In this document: positions 2,792 through 20,312 of the stretch, in pieces
Position numbering within the stretch: position 1 is the first letter of the stretch
Layout: every line of letters begins with the position of its first letter
Assembly: GCF_017357105.1 (NCBI RefSeq)
Contig: NZ_CP071596.1
Coordinates: 1,736,001 to 1,800,000 of the forward strand
DNA: 64,000 nucleotides
From: Natronosalvus caseinilyticus
Lineage (GTDB): Archaea > Halobacteriota > Halobacteria > Halobacteriales > Natrialbaceae
Reading direction: 5' to 3'
Notes under the pieces: generated by a model
What the model was told of the DNA's origin: nothing
The model's input: the letters and a program-made list of their open reading frames with translations, nothing else
Database searches by the model: none
Translations under genes and position numbers: made by a program

Positions 2792-2895
2792 GGTCGTGTC
2801 TATCCGGTCGATCGACAAAAGGACTCGAGTTGCAGCGGGCGAGACGGGGCCGGGGTTACGGCCACGAGTGACTCCCTGTGGTCGCTCGATCCTGG

Positions 2896-3429
2896 TCAGA
2901 CGTCGAAGACGACGTATGCCTCCCAGCCGCCGTCGACGTCCTCGAGGCGCATCTCGGAGTAGGTGACGGCTTTGACCTCTCTGGCGTCAATCGTCGACAG
3001 CGGAATCCCGTGAGCGTCGGCTGCGAGTCGCCAGCGGTCGGCGTGTCCGTCCCCGCTGACTGGTACCTCGAGTGCACCCTCGTCGTCCGTGCCCTCACTC
3101 TGGCTCTCGTCTCCTGCATTCTCGTCCCCCGCATCCTCCTCGATTCGCTCGAGCGTCTGAACGCGGTTGTCGACCGGCAACTCGAGGCGGACGTCCCGGA
3201 GGTAGATGAGTTCGTCCAGGTACTCGAAGAGGAGGGCCTCGCGGCTCTCGGCGCGCACCTCGAGTGTGAAGCGGTCGTCGCTCTCGCCAGCACCCGCGCC
3301 GGTGCCGGGAATCTCGTCGCACGAGGCCGCCGCCAGCCCGTCGGCAACGGCGGCGACGGTCGCCTCGAGGGTGTCGCCGCTCGCGGCGACGGCGACGTCC
3401 GCGGTGTGCGCGCGAAGCTCGTAGCTCAT
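2896..3429 (-). CDS. Archease, RtcB-activating protein
   Basis: 177 residues from the ATG at 3427-3429 (MSYELRAHTADVAV). Family features: the N-terminal HTADVA motif with the metal-binding Asp, LFEYLDELIYLRD in the middle, and C-terminal VKAVTYSEMRLED, the usual YHxM/L-type segment. Archease speeds guanylylation and turnover of RtcB. A longer acidic insert (about residues 95-125, EDAGDENAGDESQSEGTDDE) is a halophilic elaboration. The first 30 residues of the longer open frame (from 3519) lack family similarity and were left out. Confidence 0.93.
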   Translation of the reverse strand: MSYELRAHTADVAVAASGDTLEATVAAVADGLAAASCDEIPGTGAGAGESDDRFTLEVRAESREALLFEYLDELIYLRDVRLELPVDNRVQTLERIEEDAGDENAGDESQSEGTDDEGALEVPVSGDGHADRWRLAADAHGIPLSTIDAREVKAVTYSEMRLEDVDGGWEAYVVFDV

Positions 3430-3558
3430 GGGGAGTCGTTCCGTCGCCAGCGTGCTATGTGCATCGGTTCCGCGAGGCTCGAGTGGTATCGTTTTGTGGC
3501 CGCCAACGACGTCGTTCACTCCGTTCCGCGAGGAACGCCGATCCGGCCGCCGGTGGAA

Positions 3559-3564
3559 TTATAT
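3559..3564 (+). promoter_or_regulatory. TATA box of the GNAT gene
   Basis: TTATAT lies 25-30 bp before the GTG at 3589. This is the usual archaeal TATA-to-start distance, so transcription should begin at or next to the GTG (leaderless mRNA). It decides the GTG start inside a much longer open frame. A small hairpin with a GCGA tetraloop (3522-3537) sits just upstream. Confidence 0.65.
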
Positions 3565-3588
3565 TGGCGACGGTGGTACGGTTGGTTA

Positions 3589-4068
3589 GTGAGCGTCAAC
3601 ATCGACAGTCGCGTCGTCGAACCCGGTAGCGACGAGTTCGTCGACTCGGCCTGGGAGCTCAAGGAGACGATCAGCCAGGCTGAGGGGGTGCTCAAACAGC
3701 GACGCAACTTCTTCGTCGACGCCTACCGGCGCTCGACGGTCCACTGCTACGTCCGAAACGGGACGGAACTCGTCGGGTTCGCCGCGGTTCGACGCGACGG
3801 CTACATCCTCTTTCTGGCCGTCTCGCCCGACTGTCGGGGCGAGGGCATCGGCAAACGCCTCGTCGCCCAGGTCGCCGAGGACCACCGCTCGATCACCTGC
3901 CACGCCCGTACGACCAACGAGAACGCCCTCCAGTTCTACGAACATCTCGGCTTCGAGATCAAGCGCCGCATCGACAACTACTACGAGGACGGTGGCGATG
4001 CCTACTACCTCAAACTCGGCTCGAGCGCCGGGCTCTCGGATCGAATTTCGGAATTGATTCGTCGCTGA
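3589..4068 (+). CDS. GNAT family N-acetyltransferase
   Basis: 159 residues from GTG 3589, chosen by the TATA box at 3559. The acetyl-CoA site motif is seen as LAVSPDCRGEGIGKRLV (R/Q-x-x-G-x-G/A), followed by ARTTNENALQFYEHLGFE, the Asn and Tyr of the GNAT core. The acceptor substrate cannot be predicted. The family is of RimI/YpeA type and covers protein N-termini and small molecules. Divergent from archease, with 159 bp between them. Confidence 0.88.
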   Translation: MSVNIDSRVVEPGSDEFVDSAWELKETISQAEGVLKQRRNFFVDAYRRSTVHCYVRNGTELVGFAAVRRDGYILFLAVSPDCRGEGIGKRLVAQVAEDHRSITCHARTTNENALQFYEHLGFEIKRRIDNYYEDGGDAYYLKLGSSAGLSDRISELIRR

Positions 4069-4155
4069 TTCTCGTTCTGCACGCGGACCTGACCGTCTCG
4101 AGCGACGGCCATTCGGAAACGCCTATATGCCAGTGCCGCCGACTACCGGGGACGC

Positions 4156-5331
4156 ATGGAGGAGCGCACGCGGGCCTATCTTCGGGGGCGATTTCGGGAC
4201 CACTACCGACGGACGGAGATCACTCTGCCCCCGGAGGCGAACGAACGCGAGTGGGGGTACATCCCCTGGACGGAAGGCCCCAAGACCACGATGGTTCGCC
4301 ACCGCTCGCTCCTCGAACTCGGCTCGCTCGAGGACTTCCTCGAGCGCGAGCGCCCCCAGCACGTCTACTTCTCGGTCGGGCGCTACCGCGACCCCGGCGC
4401 GAACTCGATGAGCGCCAAGGACTGGCGCTCCTCGGATCTGGTCTTCGACCTCGACGCCGATCACCTGCCGAGCGTGACCCTCGGGGAGGACTCCTACGCC
4501 GAAATGCTCGAGAAGTGCAAGGACGCCCTGTTTCGCCTGCTCGACTTCCTCGAGGACGACTTCGCCTTCGAGGACCTCGAGGTCGTCTTCTCGGGCGGGC
4601 GGGGCTACCACGTTCACGTCCGCGACGAGTGCGTTCAACAGTTAGAGAGCGACCACCGGCGCGAGATCGTCGACTACGTTCGCGGGATCGGCCTCGAGTA
4701 CGACGCGCTGATTGAGACCGAGACCGTCGCCGGACTGGGGCGCAAGACGCCCACGCAGCGCCGACACCTCTCGATCGACGGCGGCTGGGGCCGACGCACC
4801 CACCGGCGGTTCATGAACTACGTCGACGACCTGCTCGACCTCGAGGAAGACGCCGCCCTCGAGAGACTGCAGTCGTTCGACGGCATCGGCGAGGGGAAAG
4901 CTCAGGCGACGCTCAACGCCGCCCGGAACAACCGCGCTGAACTCGAGGCGGGGAACGTGACGGTCCACACGGCGGTCTCCCAGCTCGCCGAGCGCTTCGC
5001 CGGGCGGGCCGTCGAGGCCGACAACGCGCCGATCGACGAACCGGTCACGACCGACACGAACCGACTCATTCGGCTCCCGAGGAGCCTCCACGGTGGCAGC
5101 GCGCTCGAGACGCGACGAATCGACAGGGACGACCTGACGGATTTCGACCCGCTGGTCGACGCCGTCCCCGAGACGTTCCGGGGCCACGAGATCGCCGTCG
5201 ACGTGAACCGCGGCGGCGAGGTCGAACTGGGGGGCGATATCTTTACAGTCCAGGAGGGTGACCAGTCACTACCGGAGTACGTCGCCATGTTTCTCATGGC
5301 GCGTGGCCGCGCTGAAAAGGAGAAAGAATGA
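4156..5331 (+). CDS. priS: DNA primase small (catalytic) subunit
   Basis: 391 residues. PriS makes RNA/DNA primers with PriL during replication. The catalytic Asp motif is seen as FDLDAD at residues 97-102 and the nucleotide-binding SGGRGYHVHV about 50 residues later, followed by ETVAGLGRKTP and the late TDTNRLIRLPRSLHGGS motif, all typical of AEP-type primases. A TATA-like TATAT at 4124-4128 is about 30 bp before the ATG. The GINS gene begins 7 bp after the stop, a replication pairing known in archaea. C-terminal MARGRAEKEKE is an ordinary short tail. Confidence 0.96.
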   Translation: MEERTRAYLRGRFRDHYRRTEITLPPEANEREWGYIPWTEGPKTTMVRHRSLLELGSLEDFLERERPQHVYFSVGRYRDPGANSMSAKDWRSSDLVFDLDADHLPSVTLGEDSYAEMLEKCKDALFRLLDFLEDDFAFEDLEVVFSGGRGYHVHVRDECVQQLESDHRREIVDYVRGIGLEYDALIETETVAGLGRKTPTQRRHLSIDGGWGRRTHRRFMNYVDDLLDLEEDAALERLQSFDGIGEGKAQATLNAARNNRAELEAGNVTVHTAVSQLAERFAGRAVEADNAPIDEPVTTDTNRLIRLPRSLHGGSALETRRIDRDDLTDFDPLVDAVPETFRGHEIAVDVNRGGEVELGGDIFTVQEGDQSLPEYVAMFLMARGRAEKEKE

Positions 5332-5338
5332 CCCAATA

Positions 5339-6241
5339 ATGAATCTCGACGAGTTACGTACGGTGCAGAGCAAGGAGCGCCAGAAGGACAGCCTCCAGCA
5401 CCTGCGTCCGTCGTTTTACAAAGAAGTCGGCGAGTACATCGCGAACCTCGAAGCCGAGCGCGAGCGCGTCGCCGAGGCCGCCGACGACCCCTTCTCCTCG
5501 CCCGAAGTCGGGCGCCTGACGGACGAAATCGAGACGGCGAAGGACGTCGTCGAGGCCATCTACGAGCGCCGGATGGGCAAACTCGTCAAGCAGGCGAGCC
5601 TCGCTGCGGCCGGGATGCCCGCCGACGACGAGGGACTGACTGCGGAGGAATCGGACCTGTTCACCGACCTCGTCGATCGCATCCAGAGCAACAAACAGCG
5701 CGTGCTCGACGTGCTCGACGGGAACGAGGACGCGGTCGCGGAGGCGACGGCCGCGAGCGAGTCGGCCGTGCCCGATCCGCCGGCCGATCCAGGCGACGCA
5801 CTGGCCGACGTCGCCGGTTCCGCGGGCGACGAGCCGACCGCCGACCCGTCGCCGGAGGGCTCGGTCAGCGTCGCCGACGCCATGGGCGGAGACCTGCCCT
5901 CGAGCGACGACGCGGATGCCGTCGATGCCGCCGAGACAGGGGCCGCGACTGGAACGGGAGACGCCGGCGACGACGTCCGGCCACCGCCACCAGAGGAACC
6001 GCCGGCGGACCGAGAGGACGCTGGCGACGCCGAACCCGGTGTCGAGACGACGGGAGGCGAGGACTCGAGCGGTTCTGCACCCGACGTCGACCGCGTCACC
6101 GTCCGCATCACCCGCGACGTCGGCTCGATCCTCGGGATCGACGACCGCGAGTACACGCTCGCGGCCGACGACGTCGTCACGCTGCCCGAGCAAAATGCGA
6201 CGCCACTGGTCGAGCGCGAGGCGGCAGAACCGCTGGAGTGA
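5339..6241 (+). CDS. GINS complex protein (Gins51-like)
   Basis: 300 residues from ATG 5339, which follows priS by 7 bp. Residues about 1-120 form the helical GINS A domain (MNLDELRTVQSKERQKDSLQ... YIANLEAERERV). A long Ala/Asp/Gly/Pro-rich acidic linker follows (about 140-240). The small beta B domain is at the C-terminus (TVRITRDVGSILGIDDREYTL). A-then-B order is that of the Gins51/Sld5-Psf1 group. GINS joins MCM and GAN/Cdc45 in the replicative helicase; coupling to priS fits a replisome operon. The linker is much longer than in non-halophiles. Confidence 0.9.
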   Translation: MNLDELRTVQSKERQKDSLQHLRPSFYKEVGEYIANLEAERERVAEAADDPFSSPEVGRLTDEIETAKDVVEAIYERRMGKLVKQASLAAAGMPADDEGLTAEESDLFTDLVDRIQSNKQRVLDVLDGNEDAVAEATAASESAVPDPPADPGDALADVAGSAGDEPTADPSPEGSVSVADAMGGDLPSSDDADAVDAAETGAATGTGDAGDDVRPPPPEEPPADREDAGDAEPGVETTGGEDSSGSAPDVDRVTVRITRDVGSILGIDDREYTLAADDVVTLPEQNATPLVEREAAEPLE

Positions 6242-6273
6242 CTCCCGAGTAACTCCCGAGTAACTCCCGAGTG
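6241..6273 (+). repeat. Three 11-bp tandem repeats after GINS
   Basis: ACTCCCGAGTA is present twice and ACTCCCGAGTG once, head to tail, starting on the last base of the GINS stop codon. The unit contains a small dyad (ACTC...GAGT), so the array can fold on itself. It sits between GINS and the peroxiredoxin gene. It could be a processing or termination site or replication slippage; nothing distinguishes these. Confidence 0.8.
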
Positions 6274-6322
6274 ATGCCCCGGGGACCGACAACACTACAA
6301 CCCGCGAGACGAATCACCGGAC

Positions 6323-6778
6323 ATGCTCGAGGCTGGCGACGACGCACCCGACTTTGCACTGCCGAACCAGCACGGCGAGACGGTTCGCCTGGACGACTTC
6401 GAGGGCCAGCACCTGATCGTCTACTTCTACCCCCGGGCGAACACCGAGGGCTGTACGGTCGAGGCCTGTGAGTTCCGCGACGCGCGCCCCGCTCTCGAGA
6501 CCGAGAACGCGGCCGTCGTCGGGATCAGCGACGACCCCGTCTCGGATCTCGCGGACTTCGCAGACGACTACGACCTCGAGTTCGACCTCCTCTCCGACGA
6601 GGACGGCTCCGTGTCGGCCGCGTACGACTCCTACGGCGAGAAGCAGATGTTCGGGAACACGTTCGACGGCGTCTTCCGGAACACCTTCGTCGTCGGTCCG
6701 GACGGCACCATCGAGGCGGTGTTCGAGGGCGTCACCCCCGAGGGACACGCCGACGAAGTGCTGAACGTTCTCGAGTGA
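6323..6778 (+). CDS. bcp: Thioredoxin-dependent peroxiredoxin, BCP/PrxQ type
   Basis: 151 residues, usual length. Reduces peroxides with a peroxidatic Cys in the motif YPRANTEGCTVEACEF. The second Cys five residues on (GCTVEAC) is the atypical 2-Cys resolving position of the PrxQ group. The start MLEAGDDAPDFALPNQHGE matches the family N-terminus. Cytosolic, with no signal. It follows GINS by about 80 bp including the tandem repeat and may have its own weak promoter. Confidence 0.95.
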   Translation: MLEAGDDAPDFALPNQHGETVRLDDFEGQHLIVYFYPRANTEGCTVEACEFRDARPALETENAAVVGISDDPVSDLADFADDYDLEFDLLSDEDGSVSAAYDSYGEKQMFGNTFDGVFRNTFVVGPDGTIEAVFEGVTPEGHADEVLNVLE

Positions 6779-7252
6779 GCGTCCGGACGGTTCAGTTTCG
6801 ATTCCGGTTCTCGATGCGATAGCGACGGTCCAGACGCGCGTTCTCTTCGAAACGAGTAGTATCGCGACTGAGTGGTTCCCTCGAGACTGCTCGGAGCAGC
6901 ACTCGAGGCGCTGTGGCGATACAGTCGACGACGGCGCTCGCTCGGGCCGACGGTGGTGCTCACCCCGGTGAACGACAAGGGCGGTGATGCTCATCCGGCC
7001 GGACGACGATGTCACCCAGGTGGACGAACGACCAACTCCCAGCGCGCGCGACCGGCCACATCGTTACGTCCTCAAGAAATCGGGTGGAATTTACAGTGCC
7101 ACGTCGTACCGTGTCCGGAACTGGCATAGTATCATTGGGTGGCGTATAAGGTCTACCCGTTCGATATAGGCCGTTTACGTCGTGCGGTTTTCCGAATCCA
7201 CACGATCGTATAGCAGCGCGCAAAAACTGCCAGCGTCTGTTTCAGCGCCAGG
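6779..7252. other. Intergenic region without a confident gene
   Basis: About 470 bp between bcp and leuA. No frame shows family-like sequence. A 55-codon minus-strand frame (6960-7127, ATG at 7127) has no recognisable content and is noted only as a possibility. The right end carries the leuA promoter. Confidence 0.5.
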
Positions 7253-10851: not shown

Positions 10852-11504
10852 CTGACCGACGTGGACTCGAGGGCCCTGCTCCCGACGAACGGCCGGCCCC
10901 GGCGGGCAAGCGCAACGAACTCGGCATCCGGGTCGATCCGGAAGTCGAGGCCGCCCGCCCACCGCGACGGACCGTCATCTCGGCGCTCGTCGAGCACGAA
11001 CCCGGCGTGCTCTCGGACGTCTCGGGGCTGTTCTCGAGGCGGCAGTTCAACATCGAGAGCCTCACCGTTGGGCCCACGGAGGACGAGGCCCACGCGCGCA
11101 TGACGATTGTCGTCGAGGAGCCCGATCCCGGCATCGAACAGGCGAAAAAACAGCTCCGGAAGCTGATCCCGGTGATCGCGGTCCGCGAACTCGAGCCGGA
11201 CGCGATGCGCCGGGAACTGGCGCTCGTGAAGGTGAACGCGACCCGGCCCGACCAGGTCGCCGCCGTCGCGGAGATGTACGGCGGAAAGACCGTCGACGCC
11301 AGCCCGGAGACGGCGACGATCGAGATCACGGGATCGCGGCAGAAAATCGACGCGGCGATCGACTCGTTCGGGCAGTTTGGCATCCGTGAAATCTCCCGAA
11401 CGGGAACGACCGCGATGGCCCGCGGGACTGACGACACGGCCGCCGAGCAGACGCAAGCACAGCCAGCCGACCACCGACACACCGTTCCAGCAGACGATGA
11501 CTGA
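10848..11504 (+). CDS. ilvN: Acetolactate synthase regulatory small subunit
   Basis: 218 residues from GTG 10848 (GTG 10839 would add three). ACT domain: [32 protein letters not shown], followed by [11 protein letters not shown] and the second ACT-like half ([10 protein letters not shown]...). Binds the IlvB large subunit and mediates valine feedback. An N-terminal Arg/Glu/Pro-rich stretch of about 40 residues and an acidic/Gln-rich tail are haloarchaeal features. ilvC starts 8 bp before its stop. Confidence 0.94.
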
Positions 11505-12582
11505 CGACACCCACACCCACACTGACACCGATACCGACGCAGACGACACGTTTACGACGAACATCTACTACGGCGAGGACGCCGACTCAAGCTACCTCGA
11601 GGACAAGACGGTAGCCGTCCTCGGCTACGGCAGCCAGGGTCACGCCCACGCGCTGAACCTCCACGACAGCGGGTTCGACGTCGTGGTCGGCCTGCGCGAG
11701 GACTCGAGTTCCTGGAGCCAGGCCGAGGACGACGGCCTGCGGGTGACGACGCCCGACGACGCCACCGCGGAAGCCGACGTGATCATGTTCCTCGTCCCCG
11801 ACACCATCCAGCCCGCGGTCTTCGAAGCCGTCGAGAACGGTCTCGAGGAGGGGAACACGGTCATGTTCGCCCACGGGTTCAACATTCACTACAATCAGAT
11901 TCAGCCACCCGAATACGTGGACGTCACGATGGCCGCTCCGAAGGGCCCGGGTCACATCGTGCGCCGCGACTACGAGAACGGCGGCGGCACCCCGGCCCTG
12001 ATCGCGGTCTACCAGGACTACACGGGCGACGCCAAGGAGGAGGCGCTGGCCTACGCCCAGGGCATCGGCGGCACCCGCGCGGGCGTCGTCGAGACGACGT
12101 TCCGCGAGGAGGTCGAGTCGGACCTCTTCGGCGAGCAGGCCGTCCTCTGTGGCGGCGTCACCTCGCTGGTCAAACACGGCTTCGAGACGCTGGTCGACGC
12201 GGGTTACGCCCCCGAAATGGCCTACTTCGAGTGCCTGAACGAACTCAAACTGATCGTCGACCTGATGTACGAGGACGGGATCGGCGGCATGTGGTACTCC
12301 GTGAGCGACACGGCGGAGTACGGCGGCCTGACCCGCGGCGACCGCATCGTCGACGACTCCGTGCGCGAGAACATGGAGGAAGTACTCGAGGAGGTCCAGA
12401 GCGGCGCGTTCGCCCGCGAGTGGATCAACGAGAACCAGGCCGGACGGCCGTCGTACACCCAGCTGAAGCGCCACGACGAGGAACACGAGATCGAGGCGAT
12501 CGGCGCGCCCCTGCGCGACCTCTTCGAGTGGGAGGACGACTCGAGCGAGAACGAACCGGCGGAAGTGCCGGCGGACGACTGA
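11497..12582 (+). CDS. ilvC: Ketol-acid reductoisomerase
   Basis: 361 residues from ATG 11497, overlapping the ilvN end by 8 bp. Class I KARI: converts acetolactate to dihydroxyisovalerate with NAD(P)H and Mg. Rossmann motif [15 protein letters not shown] at about residue 41, cofactor loop [11 protein letters not shown], then [18 protein letters not shown] and the metal site [12 protein letters not shown]. The start carries a Thr/Asp/His repeat ([13 protein letters not shown]) before the enzyme proper. C-terminal acidic tail. No ilvD (dihydroxyacid dehydratase) is present in the window, so that step is encoded elsewhere. Confidence 0.97.
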
Positions 12583-12597
12583 GACGAGGAGAGAACC

Positions 12598-12951
12598 ATG
12601 ACACGAACTACCGACACCACGACCGCAGCGAAATCGAACGACGCGAAACGGAACCGAGCCCGAAATCGAGACCGACGAACGATGGGCGACGTCAGCCACA
12701 CCAACCCCTACACGGGCGAATCGACCGGCCACCTGTTCAGCCGCGGGCCGATCGTGGCCGCCGACGGCGGGAAGGCGAACGCGGTTCCCGAAGACCGGAC
12801 GGACGAACGGGACGAACGAGCCTCGAGCGACCCCACGGACGGGGACGGGGACGACCGCATGAAAGACGTGAGCCACACGCCGCCGCGTGACGCCGCCGAC
12901 GCGAACGCGGTATTCGAGCGCGGCGGGAGCGAGGTCGGAGCCGACGAATGA
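12598..12951 (+). CDS. Unknown protein between ilvC and leuC, with a duplicated DVSHT motif
   Basis: 117 residues, basic at the start ([11 protein letters not shown]), acidic later. The motif [20 protein letters not shown] (about residues 31-50) is echoed near the C-terminus as [20 protein letters not shown], so the protein consists of two related short motifs joined by a disordered Asp/Glu/Arg linker. No enzyme fold is evident. It follows ilvC by 15 bp and overlaps the leuC start by 4 bp (ATGA), so it is made with the pathway. A second ATG at 12682 (MGDVSHT) could be the true start. Confidence 0.7.
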
Positions 12952-14369
12952 GCGAGGGAACGCTCTACGACAAGGTCTGGGACCGCCACGCGGTCACCCG
13001 CCTGCCCACCGGCCAGGACCAGCTGTTCGTCGGCCTCCACCTCATTCACGAGGTGACGAGCCCCCAAGCGTTCGGGATGCTCCGCGAGCGCGACCTCGAG
13101 GTCGCCTACCCGGACCTGACCCACGCGACGGTCGATCACATCGTGCCGACCTCGAGCAAGGAACGGCCCTACGCCGATACGGCGGCCGAGGAGATGATGG
13201 CCGAACTCGAGGAGAACGTCCGCGAGTCCGGCATCGAGTTCTCCCACCCCGACACGGGCGAACAGGGCATCGTCCACGTCATCGGCCCGGAGCAGGGGCT
13301 GACCCAGCCCGGGACGACCATCGTCTGCGGCGACAGCCACACCTCGACCCACGGCGCCTTCGGCACGCTTGCGTTCGGGATCGGCACGAGTCAGATCCGG
13401 GACGTCCTCGCCACGGGCACCGTCGCGATGGAGAAACAAAAGGTTCGCAAGATCGAGGTCACCGGCGAACTGGGCGACGGCGTCGAAGCCAAGGACGTCA
13501 TCCTCGAGATCATCCGGCGACTCGGCACCGAGGGCGGCGTCGGCTACGTCTACGAGTACGCCGGCGAGGCCATCGAGAGCCTCGACATGGAGGGCCGGAT
13601 GAGCATCTGCAACATGTCCATCGAGGGCGGCGCCCGCGCGGGCTACGTCAATCCCGACGAGACCACCTACGCGTGGCTCGAGGGTCGCGAGCGCGTCCCC
13701 GAGGGCGAGGCATTCGAGCAGCGCAAGGAGTACTGGGAGTCGATCCGATCGGACGACGACGCGACGTACGACGACGTCGTCACGATCGACGGCGGCGACC
13801 TCGAGCCGGTCGTCACCTGGGGCACGACACCGGGGCAGGGCGTCGGCATCACCGAGCCGATTCCCGAGCCCGAGAACCTCCCCGTGGACAAGGTCGAGAC
13901 GGCTCGCCGCGCCCAGGAGCACATGGGGGTCGAACCCGGCGAGACGATGGAGGGCTACCCCATCGACGTGGCCTTCCTGGGTTCGTGTACCAACGCGCGC
14001 CTGCCGGACCTCCGGCGGGCCGCTCGGCTCGTAAAGGGCCGGACAGTCGACCCCAACGTCCGTGCGATGGTCGTCCCCGGTAGCCAGCAGGTCAAGCAGG
14101 CCGCCGAGGAGGAGGGCCTGGACGAAATCTTCACCGAGGCCGGCTTCGACTGGCGCGGCGCCGGCTGCTCGATGTGTCTCGGCATGAACGAAGACCAGCT
14201 CGAGGGCGACGAGGCCTGTGCCTCCTCCTCGAACCGGAACTTCGTTGGCCGCCAGGGGAGCAAGGACGGCCGCACGGTACTGATGAACCCCCGGATGGTC
14301 GTCGCGGCGGCGATCAACGGGGAAGTGACTGACGTGCGGGCGATGAAGGAGGTGACGGTGAATGAGTAA
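12948..14369 (+). CDS. leuC: 3-isopropylmalate dehydratase large subunit
   Basis: 473 residues. Isomerises 2- to 3-isopropylmalate with LeuD using a [4Fe-4S] cluster. Cluster Cys are visible in [20 protein letters not shown] and [15 protein letters not shown]; substrate motifs [19 protein letters not shown] and [11 protein letters not shown] are present. The ATG overlaps the stop of the preceding gene, and leuD starts 8 bp before its end. No truncation. Confidence 0.97.
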
Positions 14370-14988
14370 CGAACTCGAGATCCCGAGCGTCGATTCGGTG
14401 TCGGGAACGGGCGTCGCGGTTCGCGGCAACGACATCGACACCGACCAGATCATCCCGGCCCGGTTCATGAAGGTCGTCACCTTCGACGGCCTGGGAGAGT
14501 TCGCCTTTTTCGATCAACGATTCGACGACGACGACAACGAGAAGGACCACCCGCTGAACGAGCCCGAGCACCGCGATGCTTCGGTGATGGTCGTCAACGC
14601 CAACTTCGGCTGTGGCTCCTCGCGCGAGCACGCCCCCCAGGCGCTCATGCGCTGGGGTATCGACGCCTTCATCGGCGAGAGCTTCGCCGAAATCTTCGCG
14701 GGGAACTGTCTCGCACTCGGGATGCCCACGCTCGAGGCCGATACCGAGGTCGTCGAGGAGCTGCAGGAGTGGGTCGAAGCGAATCCCGACGGCGAGCTCG
14801 ACGTCGACGTGGCCGACGAGACCGTCACCTACGGCGGGAAGACGGTCGACGTCCGCGTCGACGACGCCCAGCGAAAGGCACTCGTCGAGGGCGTCTGGGA
14901 CACCACGGCGCTGATGAAGGCGAACGCCGAAGCCGTCGACGAGACCGCCGAGGCACTCCCGTACGTCGAAGACGGGAAACGAGTGTAG
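14362..14988 (+). CDS. leuD: 3-isopropylmalate dehydratase small subunit
   Basis: 208 residues, swivel domain partner of LeuC. Motifs: [16 protein letters not shown] and [15 protein letters not shown], the latter binding substrate carboxylates. C-terminal part ends with an Ala/Glu-rich helix. Overlaps leuC by 8 bp and closes this transcription unit; the next genes lie on the opposite strand. leuB, needed for the next step, is 6 kb further on. Confidence 0.96.
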
Positions 14989-15131: not shown

Positions 15132-16019
15132 TTATCCTTCGATGGACAACCAGTCGTCGAGCACCCCGTACAGTGCTTCCAGGAACGCTTCGGGCTGTTC
15201 GAGTTTGGGATCGTCACCGGCGTCGTCGATTACGCGCAATGGCCATCCGTAGCGGGCGCTCGCGTCGCTGGCAATTTCGAGTCGTACGGCGCGGTCGTTT
15301 CGACCCCAGATCAGCGCCGTCGGAACCGTGATTCGCTCCAGATCCGCTGTCGGTACCGTGGGCACCCCGACCTCCTTCATCATGGTCCGCATAGCGGCCT
15401 TCACGTCCGACGCCCGTGAACGCTCGAGGTTGTACACCAGGAACGGCTCCCAGTCGTCGCCCATCCGCTCGATCAGACCGTCTCGATCGACCAGACACTG
15501 GTCGAGGAACCGGTGGTACGCACGGTCCGACGGTCGCACGAGGAACCGGACCAAACCGAACGCGAACATCGGGGACGGTCGGAACGGACTGAGGCCGAAC
15601 GTGTCCACGAGGATCAGTCCTCGAAGTCGGTCACTGTGATCGCTCGCGAACCGGGCCGCGATCGCGCCCCCGAGCAGGTGCCCGACCAGCGTCGGCGGCG
15701 TCGGACAGGTCCGCTCGATCAGTTCGCCGAGCCACGCTTTCACGGCGTCAGCGTCCAGCGCGTTGTTCGTTACGCTGGAGGCGCCGTGGCCGGGCAGGTC
15801 GGGAACGATTACGCGATGGGTCGTTACCAGGTCCGGGATGGTCCGCATCCACCAGAGCGCGGATTCGCCGGGGCCGTGCAGCAGGACGATTGGCGGTCCG
15901 GTACCGCCCTCCAGAATGGCGGTCGAAACCCCAGCCAACTGCAGCCGTCGCTCCGTCACAGGGAGGTCGTCGAGCAGGCGCTCTCGAGCACCCTCTGATC
16001 GTCGTTTCTGTGTGATCAT
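15132..16019 (-). CDS. Alpha/beta-hydrolase-fold protein lacking the catalytic Ser and His
   Basis: 295 residues. Fold markers: oxyanion strand GPPIVLLHGPGESALWW, then VIVPDLPGHGASSV, and IWGRNDRAV with the acid-site Asp. The nucleophile elbow, normally G-H-S-x-G-G, reads VGHLLGGAIA with Leu (CTG) for Ser. The C-terminal segment usually carrying the catalytic His (AGH...LEQPEAF) reads DDAGDDPKLEQPEAF with Asp. Two of three triad residues are therefore gone while the rest is conserved. It may be a non-catalytic partner or have a different chemistry. Follows the methyltransferase by 7 bp. Confidence 0.85.
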   Translation of the reverse strand: MITQKRRSEGARERLLDDLPVTERRLQLAGVSTAILEGGTGPPIVLLHGPGESALWWMRTIPDLVTTHRVIVPDLPGHGASSVTNNALDADAVKAWLGELIERTCPTPPTLVGHLLGGAIAARFASDHSDRLRGLILVDTFGLSPFRPSPMFAFGLVRFLVRPSDRAYHRFLDQCLVDRDGLIERMGDDWEPFLVYNLERSRASDVKAAMRTMMKEVGVPTVPTADLERITVPTALIWGRNDRAVRLEIASDASARYGWPLRVIDDAGDDPKLEQPEAFLEALYGVLDDWLSIEG

Positions 16020-16026
16020 GATTTCC

Positions 16027-16857
16027 TCACCTCGACTTCGTTCCGATACCGACGTTGACGGTGTTGTTCAACACGGCCGGACCGCTCCCGTCGGAACGCT
16101 CGCTCAGTTTGTCGTCCAGCATCGTCTGGACCACGTCTCGCTGCTCCGCCGTCAGATCGGCGACTAACCCCGCCCCGATCGGATTGCTGGCGGTCACCCA
16201 GTCCCACAGCTGTGCGCCGGAGTGGAACGCCAGCCGATGATTCGTCGTCTCCACGCGAATCTCCGTGAGACCGGCCTCGGCCAGTTTCTCGTGCAACGTC
16301 TCGGGATCCGCTACCTGAAACGGTAACGGCGGCGGGTCCGACGGGAGGCCCGTGAAACCGGGGACGGCAGCTTTCACGGCACCGAGGAAGAACCCCAGGA
16401 ACTCGATTTCGGCGGGCGGTCCCATCGTGACCAGGAGGACGCGGCCACCTGGTTTGGTAACGCGCGTCAATTCGTCCAGTCCCCGTGGGAGGTCGGGGAA
16501 CAACATGACGCCGAACTGTGAACCGGCGACGTCGAAGGTGTCGTCCTCGAGCTCGAGTGCGTGCCCGTCCATGACGCGGACCTCCAGGCTGGTGAGCCCC
16601 TCGCCACGCGCACGCGCCTCGAGGTGCTCGACCATGGCGGGAGAGATGTCCGTCGCCAGCACCTGTGCCCCCGCGCGAGCCGCGGGGATGCTCAACGCGC
16701 CACTGCCGGCCGCGACGTCCAGCATTCGCATTCCCGGCTGGAGCCCCGCCCGCTCGAGGGCCTGTTCTGCTATGGCCACGTTCGACGGAGTTACGTACTC
16801 GTCGTACTCCGGCGCGATTTTAGTCCATTCGTGCTGGATTTCTGCTCGTTCGGGCAT
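16027..16857 (-). CDS. Class I SAM-dependent methyltransferase (UbiE/MenG-like)
   Basis: 276 residues. SAM-binding motif I MLDVAAGSGALSIPAA at about residue 45, motif II ATDISPAMVEHL, then DGHALELEDDTFDVAGSQFGVMLFPD and VTKPGGRVLLVTMG. Similar to the quinone C-methyltransferase group, but the substrate cannot be told. It is first of a two-gene unit with the hydrolase-fold protein downstream, so the two may act on one metabolite. Confidence 0.9.
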   Translation of the reverse strand: MPERAEIQHEWTKIAPEYDEYVTPSNVAIAEQALERAGLQPGMRMLDVAAGSGALSIPAARAGAQVLATDISPAMVEHLEARARGEGLTSLEVRVMDGHALELEDDTFDVAGSQFGVMLFPDLPRGLDELTRVTKPGGRVLLVTMGPPAEIEFLGFFLGAVKAAVPGFTGLPSDPPPLPFQVADPETLHEKLAEAGLTEIRVETTNHRLAFHSGAQLWDWVTASNPIGAGLVADLTAEQRDVVQTMLDDKLSERSDGSGPAVLNNTVNVGIGTKSR

Positions 16858-17041: not shown

Positions 17042-17866
17042 CTACGGGTGGAGGTCCGACGAGACGACCGTCTCGAACGCCTGCGACTCGACTGGCCTCG
17101 CCTCGTTGCGGACGCGTTCGAAGGTGGCGATGGCCCACGCTCGAGCTGCCGGTGCATCCGTATCGATTACGGCCGTCAGCGCTCCGGTTTCGGGGTCGTG
17201 ACAGCAGATGCCGGCACGGTCGTCGACGATGCCGAGCCCGCACCGGGACCGGTCGGGGAGGTCGTCGTGGACGAGGACGGTGCAGTGGTCACACGATGCG
17301 GCTTCCATCACCCGTTCTGGATTCCAGGCGAGGGTCTGCTCGAGCGCTGTCGGCGAGTACACGTACTCTAGCTCCATCCCGTCGAGGACGGCCTGGCACA
17401 CCGCCTCGTTGTTGATCGACTTGAACACGATACTGTCGAACCCCCGCATTCGAGTGGTCCCCTCGATGAGGCGGGTGAGACGCTCGATCGGCTCGTACGG
17501 GTAGCCTGGTCCGGGGTACGAGACAACCGCATCGGTGAAGAGGTCGACGGAGAACTCCTCCATCTCCTGGGGGAGCCACTGCCAGACGCCGCGGAGTTTT
17601 CGTTCGAGTTCCATCGCCTCGCGGAGCTCGAGGAACCGCTCTGCGACGAACTCGCCGAGTGACGTCAAGTGATACGTTGGCCCGTCCCGAGCGATCCACC
17701 GACGGTCTTCGAAGTCGGCGAGAATCCGACTCATGGTCGGTGTAGAGGCGCCCGTGGCGGTGCGGAGCTCGTGCCGTTCGCGGGCGCCATCGGTCAGACC
17801 CTCCAGGACACCAACTCGGTGGGTCGATCTGGCGAGAAAGTCGATCTCGTCGAGGGCAGTATCCAT
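17042..17866 (-). CDS. Winged-helix transcriptional regulator (FilR1-like architecture)
   Basis: 274 residues from ATG 17866 (MDTALDEIDFLARSTHRV); an ATG five codons upstream (17881) lies in the promoter dyad and is less likely. N-terminal wHTH: ELRTATGASTPTMSRILADFEDRRWIAR, then a linker and an effector-like region of about 170 residues with YSPTALEQTLAWNPERVMEA. Five Cys in the C-terminal half (e.g. ASCDHCTVLV, GICCHD) suggest possible metal or redox sensing, an inference only. Paralogue of the regulator at 19464-20312. TATA-like ACTATAC lies 20-30 bp upstream. Confidence 0.85.
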   Translation of the reverse strand: MDTALDEIDFLARSTHRVGVLEGLTDGARERHELRTATGASTPTMSRILADFEDRRWIARDGPTYHLTSLGEFVAERFLELREAMELERKLRGVWQWLPQEMEEFSVDLFTDAVVSYPGPGYPYEPIERLTRLIEGTTRMRGFDSIVFKSINNEAVCQAVLDGMELEYVYSPTALEQTLAWNPERVMEAASCDHCTVLVHDDLPDRSRCGLGIVDDRAGICCHDPETGALTAVIDTDAPAARAWAIATFERVRNEARPVESQAFETVVSSDLHP

Positions 17867-17886
17867 GGTATGTTTACACATGCCAT
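17865..17886. promoter_or_regulatory. Inverted repeat over the start of the winged-helix regulator
   Basis: ATGGTATGT (17865-17873) and ACATGCCAT (17878-17886) form a dyad with one mismatch and a TTAC centre. It covers the predicted start codon and reaches the TATA region of the gene read leftward from 17866. The place fits an autoregulatory operator; no binding data exist. Confidence 0.45.
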
Positions 17887-18062: not shown

Positions 18063-19121
18063 CTACGGCTTGGCTTCGAACACGAGATTCAGGGGCGTCT
18101 CGGCCGCACGGCGGAACCGGGTGAAACCGCCGTCGGTCACGGCTTCCCGAATACCGGTCTCGCCAGCCTGTGCGCCCAGCACGCGCTCGGCCTCCTGATC
18201 GAGTGCACACGGCGTGCAGATTAGCGTCGAGATCGAGTAGGCTGCCCGCCCCATCGGATTGAGGTTGTCTGCCACACGGTCGTTGGCGAACAGCTCGACG
18301 ATCATCCACGTGCCGTCGTCGGTGAGCGTGTTACGGACGTGCGCCGCCGCACCCACCGGATCTCCCATGTCGTGGAGGGCGTCGAACGTGGCTACGAAGT
18401 CGTACCTCGCGCCGTTGTACGACTTGGCCGTCGCCACCTCGAAGCTGACACGGTCGGCGACGCCGGCTTCCGCTGCTCGCTCGCGGGCTGCCGCGATCGA
18501 GGGTTCGTGGGGGTCGATGCCGACGAACGTCGACTCCGGGTACGCCTCGGCCATCAGGATGGTCGAGGCGCCGTGGCCACAGCCCACGTCGGCGACGCGC
18601 CCACCGTCCTGGAGCGTCGCGTCCACCCCCTCGAGCGCGGGAATCCAGTTGTCGACCAGATTGGCCGCGTACTGAGGCCGCCAGGAGTGCTCGATTGCGT
18701 GGAAGAGGTCCGCGTCGTGTTCGTGCCACCCCACGCCCTCGCCCGTGCGGAACGCCTCGACGAGCTGTGATTCGATCCTGGCCGCCGACAGGGCGACCTG
18801 GAAGTTTCCGACCATGAACGCCGGGCTGGTCTCGTCGGCGAGCACCGCGGCCTGCTCGGGGGTGAGGGTGTAGCGGTCCATCTCCGCATCGTAGGTGACG
18901 TACCCCCCGGCGGCCTGTGCGGGGAGCCACTCGCGGACGTACCGTTCCGCAGTATCCGTTTTCTCGGCCAGTTCGGCCGACGTGAGCGGCCCCACATCAG
19001 CGAGCGTCTCGTACAGGCCGAGTTCGTCGCCGATGACGACGAGTGGTGCGTGCGCTGTCGCTCCGAAGTCGGTTATCGCCGTCTGTACGTGCTGGTTCAA
19101 TCGTTCTTCGTCGAGTGTCAT
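18063..19121 (-). CDS. SAM-dependent methyltransferase with N-terminal winged-helix/dimer domain
   Basis: 352 residues from ATG 19121 (MTLDEERLNQHVQTAITDFG). The first ~100 residues are a helical winged-helix-like domain (GLYETLADVGPLTSAELAEKTDTAERYVREWL) as in O-methyltransferases of the Rv2258c type. Then SAM motif VADVGCGHGASTILMAEAYP, VGIDPHEPSIAAA, DFVATFDALHDMGDP and TDDGTWMIVELFANDR. Substrate unknown. It sits between two paralogous regulators, either of which may control it. Confidence 0.88.
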   Translation of the reverse strand: MTLDEERLNQHVQTAITDFGATAHAPLVVIGDELGLYETLADVGPLTSAELAEKTDTAERYVREWLPAQAAGGYVTYDAEMDRYTLTPEQAAVLADETSPAFMVGNFQVALSAARIESQLVEAFRTGEGVGWHEHDADLFHAIEHSWRPQYAANLVDNWIPALEGVDATLQDGGRVADVGCGHGASTILMAEAYPESTFVGIDPHEPSIAAARERAAEAGVADRVSFEVATAKSYNGARYDFVATFDALHDMGDPVGAAAHVRNTLTDDGTWMIVELFANDRVADNLNPMGRAAYSISTLICTPCALDQEAERVLGAQAGETGIREAVTDGGFTRFRRAAETPLNLVFEAKP

Positions 19122-19463
19122 GAGTGGTCGTCGTAGGTGTCGTCGGCTGGATTGCTGAGTGCGTTCGGTCGCCCGATTCTCACGTCCCACCCTCGAGGCG
19201 GCTCGACGGCGCCTTCGTGTGGGTACAGTCTCACTCGTCGATTCGCGTCAGCATGATGTTGCGGTGTTTACATCGATCACGGTGTCTTCGCTGACCACGG
19301 TGTGAACGATGAGCGATGGTGAGATGACGACCTCGTCAGCTGTGGATCAAGTCGCTGTGGCCAGGCCGGACGATCTCGAAACACTCGACCAACGATCAGC
19401 AGACCATTGGACACGGGCGTCTTACCCCATAGGTTAATATCATGTTATGAGTTACCAATAAAC
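19122..19463. other. Intergenic region between divergent methyltransferase and regulator
   Basis: About 340 bp. No gene is seen. The right end has GGTTAATAT (19432-19440), a TATA box about 27 bp before the ATG at 19464, again giving a leaderless start. The left end should hold the promoter of the methyltransferase, but no clear box was found. Confidence 0.5.
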
Positions 19464-20312
19464 ATGGAAACTGCACTCGAGGACGTCGCGTTTCTCGCGA
19501 ACTCGGAGAACCGCGTGGCAGTCTTGGAGTTCCTCGTCGAGGCACCGCACAGTCACGACGAGATCCGTGATCGGATCGGTGCATCGCGGGTGACGACCGC
19601 GCGCATTCTCCGAGAGTTCGAAGCGCGCAACTGGATCGCACGCTCGGGACAGGAGTGTACGGTGACACCGACCGGTGAATGGGTGTGTGACGAGCTCACG
19701 CGTTTGGTGGGCGAAATGGAGGCCGAACGTCGTCTGCGTGAACCGCTGCAGTGGCTGCCGTCCGACCTTCTGACGTTCGACGTCCGGCGCCTTCGCGACG
19801 CCGAACTCGTCGTTCTCGAGGAGAGTGACGCGACCGCCATCGTTCGACGAATACTCGAATTTCGCCGCTCTGGCGACCGGATTCGGGGCGTTACACGCAC
19901 GGTCGCCCCGGAGTTCATCGAAAACGACTGGAAATCGACCGTCCACGGGGACACGCACCTCGAAATGGTGATCACACCGGACGTCCTCGACGCCATCCGA
20001 ACCCATTCGACCTCCGCGAAGCAGTTGCGTGAGATGCTCGAGGAAACGGACGTCCACGTTTCCGTCTTCGACGACGTCCCGATCTCAGTCGGGATCGTCG
20101 ACGGCGCGGTTGGAATCGACCTCACCGACGAGCAGGGCGTCGTCAAAGGAGGGTTCGTCACCGAAGACGAGGCCGTCTATGAGTGGGCAGTCGACCTCTT
20201 CGAAGCGTGCCGTGACGAAGCGAACCCCGTGGATCCTGACGAGGTCGCGGCTGACCACTCGGTTGGCGCCAATCCTGCTCAGTCTCGAGAGCGAGACGGG
20301 CCCGCGTCGTAG
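19464..20312 (+). CDS. Winged-helix transcriptional regulator, paralogue of the 17042-17866 gene
   Basis: 282 residues from ATG 19464 (METALEDVAFLANSENRVAV), set by the TATA box 27 bp upstream. wHTH residues EIRDRIGASRVTTARILREFEARNWIAR align with the neighbouring regulator, including the N-terminus (METALEDVAFLA versus MDTALDEIDFLA) and LQWLPSDL versus WQWLPQEM. The C-terminal part (VFDDVPISVGIVDGAVGIDL) is the likely ligand domain but lacks the Cys cluster of its paralogue. Probably a local regulator of the methyltransferase block. Confidence 0.85.
   Translation: METALEDVAFLANSENRVAVLEFLVEAPHSHDEIRDRIGASRVTTARILREFEARNWIARSGQECTVTPTGEWVCDELTRLVGEMEAERRLREPLQWLPSDLLTFDVRRLRDAELVVLEESDATAIVRRILEFRRSGDRIRGVTRTVAPEFIENDWKSTVHGDTHLEMVITPDVLDAIRTHSTSAKQLREMLEETDVHVSVFDDVPISVGIVDGAVGIDLTDEQGVVKGGFVTEDEAVYEWAVDLFEACRDEANPVDPDEVAADHSVGANPAQSRERDGPAS

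Follow-up and report, generated by a model that had tools for sequence, protein, structure and literature searches.

A clade of alpha/beta hydrolase-fold proteins without the catalytic serine and histidine, linked or fused to methyltransferases and flavoenzymes in haloarchaea and bacteria

Hydrolases of the alpha/beta fold generally keep a catalytic serine and histidine, and meta-cleavage product hydrolases and esterases such as BphD, HsaD and PlaF retain both residues. Triad-less alpha/beta hydrolases are already known as a kind. Catalytically dead representatives of large enzyme families tend to be encountered singly. PMC11878206 describes CGI-58, which lacks the Ser, as a cofactor of a lipase, and Arb2 as inactive and joined to a histone deacetylase domain; together with DUF3530 and DUF687, they have kept the fold and lost catalytic residues, being either triad-less or Ser-less. 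In PMC10873640, function or the histidine is described as lost in GID1 and the plant carboxylesterase-like cyclases. Their triad is lost or broken at His, the fold is reused for binding or for a new reaction, and the cyclase pathway includes a reticuline-oxidase-type enzyme.

The clade described here is compared with these systems by description. CGI-58, Arb2, DUF3530 and DUF687 belong to other families and have other partners, and the word 'methyltransferase' is absent from the main text of PMC11878206, the source for the comparison with CGI-58 and Arb2. GID1 and the cyclases are plant class I carboxylesterases. The gene that led to the clade was found in a 64,000-nucleotide stretch of DNA (the window) from a 4.24-Mb haloarchaeal assembly. 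In its members, spread over Bacteria and Archaea, the catalytic pair is lost, Asp is the fixed replacement of His, and fusions to modifying enzymes of different kinds recur. In the open literature, covered as titles and abstract openings with most subscription papers outside, no description was found of the clade, its His-to-Asp signature or its fusions to methyltransferases and berberine-bridge-type (BBE) enzymes. We give an even chance to the reading that these proteins act as non-hydrolytic, ligand-binding partner modules of linked small-molecule-modifying enzymes. The natural fusions provide a direct test of the role of a hydrolase fold after hydrolysis ends, and the clade may point to a small-molecule pathway new to science, carried on haloarchaeal and rhizobial plasmids and chromosomes.

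The former catalytic site

The earlier note had described an intact gene with a well-kept fold, and both points were confirmed: the open reading frame fills its interval exactly from start to stop (Table 1), and the protein reached 78.5 bits with Abhydrolase_1 and 78.7 bits with Abhydrolase_6, well over the respective Pfam gathering thresholds of 25.8 and 26.3. Its predicted model (pLDDT 65.6, pTM 0.71) matched whole solved hydrolases, the best being 4ns4 (Z 26.4, 261 residues, rmsd 3.0). BphD, HsaD, lipase 4opm and PlaF (6i8w) are like the window protein in the whole fold and cap, with Z scores of about 23-26 across some 240-277 residues, and in the kept acid, but they are 17-25% identical to it and keep Ser and His in the alignments. 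A scan for promoters and terminators gave no signal exceeding that of shuffled sequences.

Table 1. Features of the hydrolase-like gene and its upstream neighbours (positions in the window)
Feature	Position	Strand	Remarks
Triad-less alpha/beta hydrolase-fold protein, 295 aa	15132..16019	(-)	Intact ORF, ATG to stop
Catalytic-His position, codon 269 GAC (Asp)	15213..15215	(-)	Asp in 20/20 triad-less rows, His in 6/6 triad-keeping rows
Acid of former triad, codon 242 (Asp)	15294..15296	(-)	Kept in all rows
Cap region, codon 175 (Cys)	15495..15497	(-)	20/20 triad-less, 0/6 triad-keeping rows
End of strand beta6, codon 139 (Asp)	15603..15605	(-)	20/20 triad-less, 2/6 triad-keeping rows
Nucleophile elbow, codon 115 CTG (Leu)	15675..15677	(-)	Ser in triad-keeping relatives (alignment)
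Oxyanion loop HGPGE, codon 52 (Glu)	15864..15866	(-)	18/20 triad-less, 0/6 triad-keeping rows
Class I SAM methyltransferase (Methyltransf_11, UbiE-like)	16027..16857	(-)	Upstream neighbour of hydrolase-like gene
Transcription regulator (HVO_A0261_N + FilR1_middle)	17042..17881	(-)	First gene of conserved haloarchaeal trio

The elbow of the window protein reads LVGHLLGGAIA, so that Leu115 stands where a serine hydrolase would have Ser, Cys or Asp. The two replacements reported in the earlier note were both found as described. Codon 115, within the elbow GHLLGG, is CTG, which differs at two bases from the nearest Ser codon, TCG (TTG does not encode Ser), and codon 269 is GAC. The His expected after strand beta8 is thus replaced by Asp269, in the GDDP of VIDDAGDDPKLEQPEAF. 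The acid of a serine hydrolase is present as Asp242, which follows strand beta7 in the context GRNDRAV and occurs in 20 of 20 triad-less rows. The protein also lacks the D/E-H dyad, with its retained His, of Ser-independent carboxy-lyases.

Residues were counted in the 20 triad-less rows that are intact at the scored columns (L040 is frameshifted there) and in six triad-keeping rows. Across the former, the elbow residue varies (Leu in eight, Ile in six, Gly in three, Val in two and Met in one), and 42 of 295 columns are invariant. In addition to the residues of Table 1, Asp270 occurs in 18 of 20 triad-less and in none of the six triad-keeping rows. Asp139 lines up with the Glu that ends strand beta6 in an ancestral haloalkane dehalogenase, but an ordinary esterase also has Asp there; many clusters are known that carry a triad acid on this strand (PMC11878206, section 2.7). 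As judged from the alignment, the nucleophile site is drifting while the site of the former base is fixed as an acid, which would favour a pocket that is still used over a mere support. Several of the fixed residues specific to the clade are expected near the old active site, and this suggests a pocket-dependent role over that of a plain scaffold.

The window protein had five other matches in the same genome, and three of them were compared, the remaining two (L002 and L006) being probably wrong-strand reads. In L004 and L005 the elbow is of the GxSxG type and a His lies close to where it is expected. In L003 the elbow, VASS, contains Ser, and His is missing from the expected place.

Sharing and distribution of the loss

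Relatives were aligned in 30 rows, and a tree was built from 27 of these after removal of fragments or frameshifted copies (L025, L043 and L070). All 21 triad-less rows fell on one side of a single branch (support 97/94), and the six rows outside it all keep Ser and His. The triad-less rows come from haloarchaea, rhizobia, one Chloroflexota MAG and Actinomycetota. After exclusion of L044, a long row, and of the columns for the elbow, the His site and five other state-specific positions, the split still had support of 94/92. L070 (G1704), which the end of its contig truncates to 142 residues, has the elbow LVGHTAGG and no visible His region, and was counted neither as triad-less nor as triad-keeping.

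Close homologues share the loss, which is old. Since hydrolases of this fold generally keep both residues, one loss is the natural polarity of the branch. An artefact, sequencing slip or private loss was rejected because both positions are lost across 21 rows, and in the sister genome, other haloarchaea and three bacterial phyla. The rows from haloarchaea are nested together with two from actinobacteria (97/89), which points to acquisition of the haloarchaeal gene by transfer from bacteria.

The gene is rare and patchy, as indicated by the low counts of matches across taxa. Matches were found in two of eight genomes of the genus, four of 125 of the family and six of 391 of the class, the window's own genome included; two of these six are broken or a fragment. 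Among 72,556 plasmid records four matched, one of them a fragment, and five loci matched among genome contigs. On the bacterial side, 5 of 297 genomes matched in the family of the Rhizobium locus. The order of the Mesorhizobium locus (377 genomes) had no match but that genome itself; around the Chloroflexota MAG 2 of 41 (one at only 35% identity) and 1 of 331 matched, and the phylum of the Actinomycetota MAG gave 12 matches among 326. The patterns used found no relative of the hydrolase-like protein on viral contigs, and the protein matched none of the anti-phage defence families of PADLOC-DB; on these grounds a phage or defence gene was rejected.

Cassettes and fusions

In the window, seven bases separate the methyltransferase stop (16027) from the start of the hydrolase-like gene (16019) on the same strand, in agreement with the coupling that had been noted earlier. 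The methyltransferase resembles UbiE/MenG-type enzymes in its Methyltransf_11 domain and glycine-rich motif, but with the demethylmenaquinone methyltransferase model it reached 70.7 bits, below the cut-off of 327. In PADLOC-DB it matched only part of mad2 (residues 23-144). An HVO_A0261/FilR1-type regulator lies upstream in the five haloarchaeal relatives compared directly. Haloterrigena and Halorussus have an annotated transcriptional regulator of 825 bp upstream, and G024 has a 297-aa ORF in the place of the regulator, known by position alone.

Several other genes surround the trio. A second methyltransferase with an Rv2258c-like winged-helix domain (HTH_65 + Methyltransf_31) lies just upstream at 18063-19190 (-), and is followed at 19407-20312 (+) by a second regulator that by eye resembles the one of the trio; G004 has a 33% relative of the trio regulator at a similar place (L043). 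On the other side, ilvC, leuC and leuD, assigned by eye at 11377-14988 (+), converge on the hydrolase-like gene, placing an accessory trio beside a branched-chain amino acid operon.

Nine haloarchaeal loci with the methyltransferase were compared (the window, G004, G002, G024, Haloterrigena, Halorussus, Salinigranum, Natrinema sp. and Natronorubrum aibiense). Four carry an intact hydrolase-like gene of 295-300 codons, three of the four being 73-79% identical to the window copy. Broken or truncated remains were found in three others: the G004 copy has an early in-frame stop and a frameshift with Asp269 still conserved, Salinigranum keeps a 5-prime piece, and what is left in Natrinema sp. is 32 codons from the 3-prime part. 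No hydrolase-like gene could be detected in N. aibiense or G002. Because the methyltransferase is kept where the hydrolase-like gene is lost, the partner is dispensable in haloarchaea in at least some settings, and its frequent loss argues against an essential role there.

Across the clade, a methyltransferase is fused or adjoining in 15 of 21 triad-less loci. The window-type enzyme is encoded upstream in four haloarchaeal loci and by the next gene in L060, L063 and L064. In six rhizobial ORFs the hydrolase-like part is N-terminal to the window-type methyltransferase in a single reading frame. L040 has the same layout with a frameshift; this fusion from Mesorhizobium temperatum (2868-4617 (+)) is broken near the end of the hydrolase part. 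The order is opposite in L058, where the hydrolase-like part is C-terminal to a different methyltransferase (32% identical). A model of the hydrolase and methyltransferase fusion made from a two-sequence input reached pLDDT 33 and pTM 0.23, too low to be of use.

No methyltransferase was found in the stretch examined of the other six triad-less loci (L034, L037, L059, L061, L062 and L066). The hydrolase-like part is fused N-terminally to a FAD_binding_4/BBE enzyme in L062; an enzyme of the same type overlaps it by four bases in L037 and lies two genes up in L061. A flavin monooxygenase-like gene is upstream in L066 and a short-chain dehydrogenase in L059, and no modifying enzyme was present among the two ORFs scanned in L034. 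The regulator of L034 (177-2504 (+)) has an adenylate/guanylate cyclase domain preceding its LuxR domain.

Triad-keeping relatives also occur in similar cassettes, with a methyltransferase beside L039 and L067 and a flavoenzyme beside L068. The place in the cassette has thus outlived the catalytic residues, and the cassette seems to be older than the loss of the triad. Next to the triad-keeping relative in L067, an HxlR-type DNA-binding domain is fused to a FAD_binding_4/BBE oxidoreductase (4804-6930 (+)).

Possible roles of the retained fold

In the partner reading, an old alpha/beta hydrolase-fold clade lost Ser and His once, kept the fold and gained fixed residues of its own. Hydrolysis has most likely gone from the clade, and the old pocket probably binds a small molecule. 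The protein would then serve as partner of an adjoining or fused enzyme, which in the window is the SAM methyltransferase and in relatives may be another methyltransferase, a berberine-bridge-type FAD oxidoreductase or a flavin monooxygenase. The direct fusions to methyltransferases make such a role plausible, and for haloarchaea contact between the two proteins is inferred. The earlier note had proposed a non-hydrolytic role, for example as a binding partner. The shared loss, purifying selection and methyltransferase fusions favour the non-hydrolytic part, and binding to a partner would be its probable form.

The regulators suggest another role, which we consider unlikely. The dead hydrolase could be a ligand receptor in the manner of GID1, passing a signal to the linked regulator (TPR-LuxR in bacteria, HVO_A0261/FilR1-type in haloarchaea) while the modifying enzyme acts on the same compound. 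GID1 is described as a catalytically dead carboxylesterase relative in PMC10873640. Of 17 bacterial triad-less loci, 14 have a GerE (LuxR) regulator upstream, adjacent or about one gene away. None was found in L040, L059 or L064, and an ORF or gene, in some cases without a Pfam match, intervenes in L033, L035, L041, L042 and L066. These regulators are related: among 14 compared, including those of the triad-keeping L068 and L069, the 13 others matched that of L024 at 47-61%. However, every fusion observed is to an enzyme and none to a regulator. The haloarchaeal regulator also comes from another family, and stays after the hydrolase-like gene is lost.

Slightly less probable again is a new catalyst, in which the acids Asp269, Asp242, Asp139 and Glu52 would drive another reaction, for instance by cyclising, dehydrating or isomerising the compound that is methylated or oxidised by the partner. 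Clade-specific residues are fixed where the old active site is expected, and plant carboxylesterase-like cyclases that lost His have gained a new reaction alongside a reticuline-oxidase-like enzyme (PMC10873640). However, what was covered of the literature yielded no catalytic alpha/beta hydrolase without both Ser and His; Ser-less lyases retain the D/E-H dyad (PMC11878206, section 2.7), and Asp139 is present in ordinary esterases too. We place at the same low level a wider proposal, that the site was rebuilt once as a pocket lined by these four carboxylates, for new chemistry or for a cationic ligand or metal. On this view the clade would be reprogrammed and not dead. It would serve bacteria and archaea alike as a transferable unit for handling substrates, placed before or after a methyltransferase or a berberine-bridge-type oxidase, with regulators of a single kind in control.

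Gene loss in haloarchaea could also mean that the protein arrived dead from bacteria with the methyltransferase and, being useless there, is a passenger in the course of being lost. The remains in three and the absence in two of the nine loci fit this account, which selection makes improbable. By pairwise Nei-Gojobori estimates, dN/dS of the hydrolase-like gene was 0.175-0.355 for the four intact copies from haloarchaea and 0.114-0.275 for six from rhizobia, and that of the haloarchaeal methyltransferase was 0.115-0.284. Even on the branch to the broken G004 copy, in which Asp269 survives, 36 synonymous changes stand against 14 non-synonymous ones. Since divergence from G004, the window branch has acquired 19 synonymous and 20 non-synonymous changes in the hydrolase-like gene and 10 and 22 in the methyltransferase, so the hydrolase-like gene is not specially relaxed. 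The picture that the earlier note had set against its own reading, homologues with Ser and His beside a relaxed window copy, is not the one found, as the loss is shared and dN/dS lies at 0.11-0.36.

A protein that is still a hydrolase with replaced catalytic residues, or a BioC-BioH-like partner in a methyl ester cycle, is very improbable, because the usual sites hold neither nucleophile nor base and because, although the BioH and MenH models match the fold, the NCBIfam equivalog scores fall below cut-off for both proteins (BioH 62.3 against 206.95 bits and MenH 69.5 against 208.55 for the hydrolase-like protein; BioC 40.8 against 184.95 for the methyltransferase), which rules out a BioC-BioH pair.

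On the Haloterrigena plasmid, two further alpha/beta hydrolases lie divergently upstream of the trio (L022, 4230-5980 (-)).
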